Source of the DNA: Geobacteraceae bacterium
GTDB lineage: Bacteria > Desulfobacterota > Desulfuromonadia > Geobacterales > Geobacteraceae
Reading direction: 5' to 3'
Assembly: GCA_009773645.1 (NCBI GenBank)
Contig: WSYB01000019.1
Location: forward strand, 1-61,334
Length of the DNA stretch: 61,334 nucleotides
The notes below the pieces were generated by a model. That model was not told the origin of the DNA. It saw only the letters and a program-made list of their open reading frames with translations, and ran no database searches. The translations under genes were made by a program, and so were the position numbers. Below are positions 1,259-1,684 of the stretch, in pieces (the first letter of the stretch is position 1; each line of letters opens with the position of its first letter).

Positions 1259-1291
1259 ACGATAAAGCCCGCTTGACGCGGGCTTTATCGT
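1259..1291. terminator. bidirectional intrinsic terminator
   Basis: Perfect inverted arms ACGATAAAGCCCGC and GCGGGCTTTATCGT are separated by a 5-nt TTGAC loop, with A/T-rich flanks on both sides. It sits between the convergent HTH gene (plus) and the AhpD-like gene (minus), so it can serve both. Confidence 0.75.
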
Positions 1292-1302
1292 AATTCATCC
1301 TG

Positions 1303-1560
1303 CTACTCCCCGATATCGAGCTCTTCCGCCAGGCCGAGCACGAAATTCTTCGCCAGTCCGGACGGGGCGATGATCCCGTAGGCGAGGGCCTCTTTCAGTT
1401 CCGCCGTGGTTGCTCCTGCTTCCTTCGCGGCCGCGAAGTGCTTCTTCAGTCAGGTGGGACACCCCACCGCCACCGCGCAGCCGACCCGGATCAACTCCCG
1501 GGTTCTGGCGTCGAGCACCTCTTCGTATTCAAAATCGAGGATCTTCTTGCGAATCTTCAT
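1303..1560 (-). CDS. AhpD-like (carboxymuconolactone decarboxylase family) selenoprotein candidate
   Basis: Read from ATG at 1560 with an AAGGAG ribosome binding site about 6 nt upstream, the frame encodes 85 residues if the UGA at 1452-1450 is read through. It then ends at TAG 1305-1303. UGA is codon 37 and falls in VGCPT-U-LKKHF, exactly where AhpD/CMD-family proteins carry the second Cys of their CxxC redox pair, giving CxxU (Cys34, Sec37). The sequence after the UGA (HFAAAKEAGATTAELKEALAYG) is clearly the conserved continuation of the family, so the gene is not simply ended there. A hairpin with a GG-containing loop lies at SECIS distance. AhpD-like selenoproteins are known in bacteria. 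Expected role: a small thiol/selenol peroxidase or disulfide reductase in the cytoplasm. The alternative is a nonsense-mutated pseudogene. Confidence 0.8.
1423..1438 (-). promoter_or_regulatory. candidate bacterial SECIS hairpin
   Basis: On the minus strand the perfect palindrome CTTCGCGGCCGCGAAG begins 11 nt after the UGA. It folds as a 6-bp stem with a GGCC loop, placing the loop 17 nt from the UGA. Known bacterial SECIS elements have a short upper stem and a G in the first loop positions roughly 16-37 nt downstream of UGA, so position and loop fit. The fold itself is inferred by eye. Confidence 0.55.
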
Positions 1561-1684
1561 GCCGCGTCTCCTTTCCTGGTGATTGCCGGCCACAACCGGC
1601 CGTTTTTGGTGCGTTGAGGTGAATGAAAGTTTAGCACATGCGGCGGCCGGCGGAAACCGGAAGATGCTCTCGGCCTGGACAGCC

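Follow-up and report, generated by a model that had tools for sequence, protein, structure and literature searches.

The gene and its family

The window, by which we mean the whole stretch of DNA that was analysed, comprises 61,334 nucleotides of contig WSYB01000019.1 from a Geobacteraceae bacterium (assembly GCA_009773645.1). Its minus strand carries a small gene with a UGA inside the reading frame, in the context C-P-T-U. The first-pass annotation of this DNA had proposed that the UGA, at codon 37, is read as selenocysteine (Sec), that the frame continues for 48 more codons to a TAG, and that a palindromic stem-loop with a GGCC loop begins 11 nt after the UGA; we confirmed the codon, the 48 sense codons that separate it from the TAG, and the palindrome (Table 1). 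Read through the UGA, the frame gives the protein MKIRKKILDFEYEEVLDARTRELIRVGCAVAVGCPTULKKHFAAAKEAGATTAELKEALAYGIIAPSGLAKNFVLGLAEELDIGE. Under translation table 11 the frame stops at the UGA, and the ORF is listed as 1450-1767.

Table 1. Features of the locus, with positions counted along the window.
Feature	Positions	Strand	Description
GSU3128-family AhpD-like selenoprotein CDS (predicted)	1303..1560	minus	85 residues, U at residue 37; ATG at 1560-1558, TAG terminator at 1305-1303
Sec-UGA (predicted), codon 37	1450..1452	minus	TGA at the aligned codon in 103/103 loci
Predicted bacterial SECIS apical hairpin	1423..1438	minus	Palindrome CTTCGCGGCCGCGAAG, starting 11 nt past the UGA; 6-bp stem CUUCGC/GCGAAG, loop GGCC, loop 17 nt past the UGA
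Conserved 18-nt RNA core	1423..1440	minus	CAC-TTC-GCG-GCC-GCG-AAG; codons 41-46, H-F-A-A-A-K
RBS-like AAGGAG	1568..1573	minus	7 nt upstream of the ATG, read from the sequence
Perfect 14-nt inverted repeat, possibly a terminator	1259..1291		Shortly past the stop codon

A terminator-like match on the plus strand overlaps the inverted repeat. Also on the plus strand, an HTH protein is encoded at 762-1160; its N-terminus weakly resembles Phd/YefM, below cut-off, and it is possibly an antitoxin. The small protein at 339-680 begins like a zinc ribbon (Pfam Zn_ribbon_3, likewise below cut-off) and may come from a cut-short gene. An Rfam search of the window returned zero families at the gathering score, and a search of plasmid records gave zero matches. 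Stop-to-stop ORF clustering around the 98 homologous loci described below is noisy: the clusters found at 97 and 68 of the 98 include frames that overlap the gene itself, and the next is found at 36.

The read-through protein matches the NCBIfam model NF041047, 'GSU3128 family (seleno)protein', with 158.3 bits (3.8e-47; curated cut-off 110 bits) over residues 1-82 of its 85, and it matches the Pfam family CMD (PF02627) at 2e-14. Since both matches are obtained with the UGA read through, and the NF041047 match extends to residue 82, the frame beyond the UGA is not accidental. The CxxU motif with an in-frame UGA, which a 2026 review (PMC13188914, cited from excerpts, as are all the papers below) gives for the GSU3128 family, is present as C34-P-T-U37.

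The excerpted review describes NF041047 as a CxxU 'distant alkylhydroperoxidase (AhpD) homolog'. Under the name 'distant AhpD homolog', a selenoprotein of G. sulfurreducens and G. uraniumreducens appears in the excerpts of a 2006 paper (PMC1794560), and those of a 2005 paper (PMC1242214) hold a G. sulfurreducens candidate whose best homologue is 4-carboxymuconolactone decarboxylase. Because model, name and lineage are shared, we take the window gene to belong to the family of these three papers, so far as their excerpts describe it; among the papers searched, none was found under the name 'GSU3128'. Judged by its sequence, the window gene is a member of an already known selenoprotein family, whose earlier description the first-pass annotation does not mention. 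It resembles that family in length, sequence (158 bits), CxxU motif and lineage, with no notable difference; the close relatives named among the matches listed are Geomonas and Geobacteraceae records. We doubt the earlier expectation that annotation pipelines would overlook this gene or cut it in two, since a dedicated NCBIfam '(seleno)protein' model matches it above cut-off. What we add to the excerpted parts of the three papers is a count of Cys forms (none), the freeze of synonymous sites in the hairpin, and a sister group below the cut-off that has the same core.

The UGA codon and the selenocysteine genes among relatives

Searching the order, we found 91 of 141 genomes with a match over the NF041047 cut-off and exactly one TGA in each such match. 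A search of the class placed 136 of 277 genomes over the cut-off, with 137 matches, every one of which (137/137) contains an in-frame TGA. From a draw of 395 genomes across the phylum, 16 exceeded the cut-off, all with the TGA and all within the window's own class; the best 21 matches of this draw all have the TGA, and stop-free matches begin only at 5e-13 and 50 bits. The loci that we read number 103: to those of the order, 91 in all, we added 7 others from the class and, from the phylum draw, the 5 matches that scored best below the cut-off. Of the 103, 98 are therefore over the cut-off, and the other 39 over-cut-off matches of the class are known by their stop count only. The aligned codon is TGA at all of the loci read, including 98/98 over the cut-off. 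The same 103 genes end in TAA (42), TGA (34) or TAG (27), and this mixture indicates that TGA still works as a stop in these genes.

An over-cut-off form lacking the TGA, that is, a Cys form, was seen in none of the order, class and phylum-draw searches. In the order and phylum-draw searches, stop-free relatives of the family belong to the wider CMD superfamily only and lie far under the cut-off. For the 'distant AhpD homolog', a table in the excerpts of PMC1794560 gives a count of one conversion from Cys to Sec, which implies that the tree of that study included Cys relatives. A scan of contigs gave, among the matches listed, at least 8 loci, of which at least 4 are close (82-85% identity) and at least 4 remote (42-45%). 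Further CMD matches, which do not exceed the NF041047 cut-off, are likewise listed with one in-frame TGA (G056:C1:38488, G021:C20:26214, G024:C32:17467, G018:C41:4895, G020:C1:779255 and others). They may represent additional AhpD-like selenoproteins, though edge effects could account for some of them, as for G019:C65, which has a TGA in one listing and none in another.

The first-pass annotation had claimed that family conservation extends beyond the UGA, and had named further stops or frameshifts in close relatives as a sign of a pseudogene. We counted parsimony changes per codon on a FastTree tree of the 98 sequences, using 26 codons upstream of the UGA and 40 downstream. At codon positions 1, 2 and 3 the counts are 3.12, 1.96 and 19.12 before the UGA and 3.68, 2.38 and 17.48 after it, and the similarity of the two patterns argues that purifying selection continues past the UGA. 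Nor did decay emerge as the rule: the post-UGA frame stays open to about residue 82 or further in the 98 over-cut-off homologues, one of which (L115) has a C-terminus that diverges in a frameshift-like manner. In the class search, a second copy in genome G652 has an extra TAG.

A search for selA, selB, selC and selD in the same genome had also been suggested, and in the window's own genome (4.74 Mb, 78 contigs) all four are present: selC as a tRNA-Sec at 79.5 bits with anticodon tca, and matches to selB (383.6 bits), selA (617 bits) and selD (347.6 bits). The selD match has its own in-frame UGA at codon 17, followed by a hairpin whose loop lies 17 nt past the UGA, the same distance as in the window gene. 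Across the order, tRNA-Sec is found in 84 of 91 genomes that bear the family gene versus 32 of 50 that do not (Fisher p 5e-5, relatedness ignored). The seven gene-bearing genomes with no tRNA-Sec match under strict search filters (G049, G066, G072, G081, G091, G126, G130) are 66-99% complete, three of them at least 96%. Two or three tRNA-Sec matches occur in 10 of the 141 genomes (G023, G044, G054, G086, G089, G107, G114, G116, G117, G118).

Conservation of the downstream hairpin

Taken as a 22-nt piece, the palindrome past the UGA forms a stem of 6 bp with an energy of -8.7 kcal/mol (window range -8.7 to -9.8 kcal/mol). The bSECIS model, as excerpted from PMC13188914, consists of a loop of 3-9 nt, an upper stem of 4-16 bp, a G in the first two loop positions, a spacing of 16-37 nt and an MFE at or below -7.5. 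With its GGCC loop, 6 bp and spacing of 17 nt, the window hairpin fits the whole of this model, which answers the annotation's proposal that a bacterial SECIS prediction be run.

Such a fit is weak evidence by itself. Among the 1911 TGAs of the window, 317 are followed by a compatible stem of at least 6 bp, so the hairpin alone is not above chance, and its energy is unremarkable against dinucleotide shuffles (z of -0.57, -1.02 and -1.41 for three lengths). For 96 distinct sequences of the family, MFE compared with synonymous shuffles gave a mean z of -0.22, with p<=0.05 in 5/96; four control windows inside the gene, shuffled in the same way, gave z of 0.30, -0.38, -0.40 and -0.12. RNAalifold on 92 distinct sequences was nearly flat (-0.79, covariation term 0.07). 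Since the shuffles and in-gene controls show zero excess and the RNAalifold signal is almost nil, we dropped hairpin stability as evidence. Of the earlier claim about the stem-loop, its presence stands; what carries weight is its conservation across relatives, to which we now turn.

In place of stability we compared changes at third codon positions on the tree, in a stretch made up of the palindrome named in the first-pass annotation plus the two bases that complete codon 41. Five codons among 41-46 keep their residue in at least 95% of sequences, and their third positions have undergone 3, 1, 4, 1 and 1 changes; the 35 other codons kept to this extent have a median of 21 and a minimum of 4 (Mann-Whitney p 2e-4, dependence between sites ignored). 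When the gene is cut into all 56 runs of six codons without the UGA, codons 41-46 also have the lowest third-position mean (2.2 versus a median of 19.25). For example, Phe42 is TTC in all 94 sequences with Phe there, whereas Phe elsewhere is TTC 51 times and TTT 62 times; Ala45 is GCG in 94/98, as against 229/957 for Ala elsewhere.

All six stem pairs form in 99 of the 103 loci. Covariation is slight, with compatible variation at the outermost pair only (98 CG, 3 UA, 2 UG). The commonest loop in the NF041047 family is GGTC (68/103 loci), unlike the GGCC of the window (10/103), and G is absent from the first two loop positions at 11/103 loci. In one genus, the four loci L074, L076, L084 and L092 have the loop CTTG and only 3-4 of the 6 pairs, with UGA and protein retained; there the SECIS may be shifted or differently shaped.

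Five loci from other classes of the phylum (L137-L141) are TGA-containing relatives that score 71-77 bits against the NF041047 cut-off of 110. Because this sister group falls under the cut-off, present annotation may miss such genes. Their motifs include C-S-H-U in two and C-A-H-U in one, the former being the C-S-H-C of M. tuberculosis AhpD with Sec; in L138 and L139 the start codon lies three codons downstream of a stop. We compared the core in four of the five, L137, L138, L140 and L141, all outside the window's class: their 18-nt core is 94-100% identical to that of the window, and the remaining aligned DNA 49-56%. We regard conservation of the hairpin across relatives as convincing and significant evidence and, to judge from these alignments, the hairpin is under selection beyond the protein code.

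The same selection may have left its mark on the protein. Our alignment of other CMD homologues contains 15 rows from 13 of 26 loci, of which 14 have CxxC and one SxxS, and F-A-x-A-K at the hairpin codons occurs in 0/15 of them; the RNA may thus be the cause of part of the protein conservation there. Taken further, the GSU3128 family would be locked to selenocysteine, with the SECIS hairpin dictating both codons and amino acids (F-A-x-A-K) past the active site. The lack of a Cys version among the 137 over-cut-off class matches speaks for such a lock, and the Cys-to-Sec conversion tabulated in PMC1794560, as excerpted, speaks against it; we put the lock forward tentatively, as an idea that falls somewhat short of being probable.

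Active site, rival readings and meaning

Seen in one genome, a single in-frame stop has the look of a pseudogene, with the UGA due either to a nonsense mutation that disables the gene or to a TGC or TGT codon wrongly sequenced, and the extra TAG in the G652 copy and the frameshift-like end of L115 tell us that the family does decay. Decay of the window gene is nevertheless extremely unlikely, given the same UGA at every locus read and a TGA in every over-cut-off match of the class, the coding constraint that persists past it, and the Sec genes of the genome; on the conserved UGA, the ongoing constraint and those genes, recoding is the likelier reading, as the first-pass annotation had judged. 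We dropped an assembly error as an explanation in view of the recurrence of the codon in all 103 loci. At Sec-UGA codons generally, termination competes with insertion, and the UGA could be imagined as a genuine stop that yields a 36-residue peptide, with the remainder a relic or a regulatory RNA; the frozen 18-nt core might in principle be a regulatory element. Yet over the 40 codons past the UGA some residues are invariant and changes fall strongly on third positions, the greater part of the modelled domain comes after the UGA, and the core sits at SECIS distance, so that we hold this reading to be exceedingly improbable.

A near-cognate tRNA might also place another residue (Trp or Cys) instead of Sec at the UGA. 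The imperfect hairpins of one genus and the seven gene-bearing genomes without a tRNA-Sec match would suit such readthrough, but gene and tRNA-Sec co-occur across the order, UGA terminates a third of the very same genes (34/103), and CxxC homologues have their second Cys at this position; we consider such readthrough very unlikely. On account of those same 34 terminators we also dropped a genome-wide reassignment of UGA.

Sec insertion is the reading that we retain, and it is strongly supported by the sequences compared here. The gene is almost certainly that of a small single-domain redox selenoprotein of the AhpD/CMD fold, with Cys34-Pro-Thr-Sec37 and with Sec insertion predicted to occur at the UGA via the SECIS. 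Sequence and predicted fold agree in placing it in the AhpD/CMD superfamily (PF02627). The AF2 model, in which Cys replaces Sec, has a pLDDT of 95.1 and a pTM of 0.85, and its top Foldseek matches are CMD/AhpD folds (RclX, O27018, TM1620 and others), with a best E-value of 6.2e-3, short of 0.001; a PDB sequence search leads to the same group (7y4r at 1.7e-8, 3bey at 4.1e-8).

Residues E22, C34, 37 and H41 are invariant in 59/59 aligned proteins. Their spacing equals that of Glu118, Cys130, Cys133 and His137 in M. tuberculosis AhpD (PMC3141380, in excerpt): Cys comes 12 positions after Glu, and His 4 positions after the second redox residue. Four of the five positions of the AhpD relay are thus kept in the window protein; the position of His132, for which the excerpt gives Tyr50 in P. 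aeruginosa PA0269, is Thr in the window protein and, across the 98, Thr in 68 and Asp in 24. Both AhpD and PA0269 share the two-helix active-site motif with the window protein, which differs from them in having Sec for the second Cys and in being one 85-residue domain; unlike in those systems, AhpC was found at 0/5 of the tested ORFs adjoining the gene. The AhpD domains of MduS (NF045649; 33.6 bits, cut-off 380) and ArsM/AhpD (NF041537; 35.2 bits, cut-off 510) are weakly similar to the window protein. By their names these two are methyltransferase-domain fusions, whereas the window protein is a stand-alone domain; the excerpts of PMC13188914 give the CxxU motif for both.

We picture the protein as a peroxide- or disulfide-reducing selenol/thiol protein, made and used as follows. 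SelA, SelD and tRNA-Sec would supply the Sec-tRNA. The hairpin, 17 nt past the UGA, would be recognised by SelB, which would bring the tRNA to codon 37; Sec would be inserted there, and translation would run on to the TAG. The Cys34/Sec37 pair would then form a selenenylsulfide and act together with Glu22 and His41, after the manner of the proton relay in AhpD, and the protein may reduce peroxides or serve as a redox adaptor.

The internal UGA is thus confirmed as coding by an independent route, and a hairpin that is unremarkable in one genome turns convincing through the synonymous sites of 98 relatives. The excerpted text of a 2025 paper (PMC12013277) holds that homologues containing Cys now seem to exist for every known selenoprotein. 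A redox family in which Sec members are numerous and our searches turned up no Cys form would therefore make a useful case.
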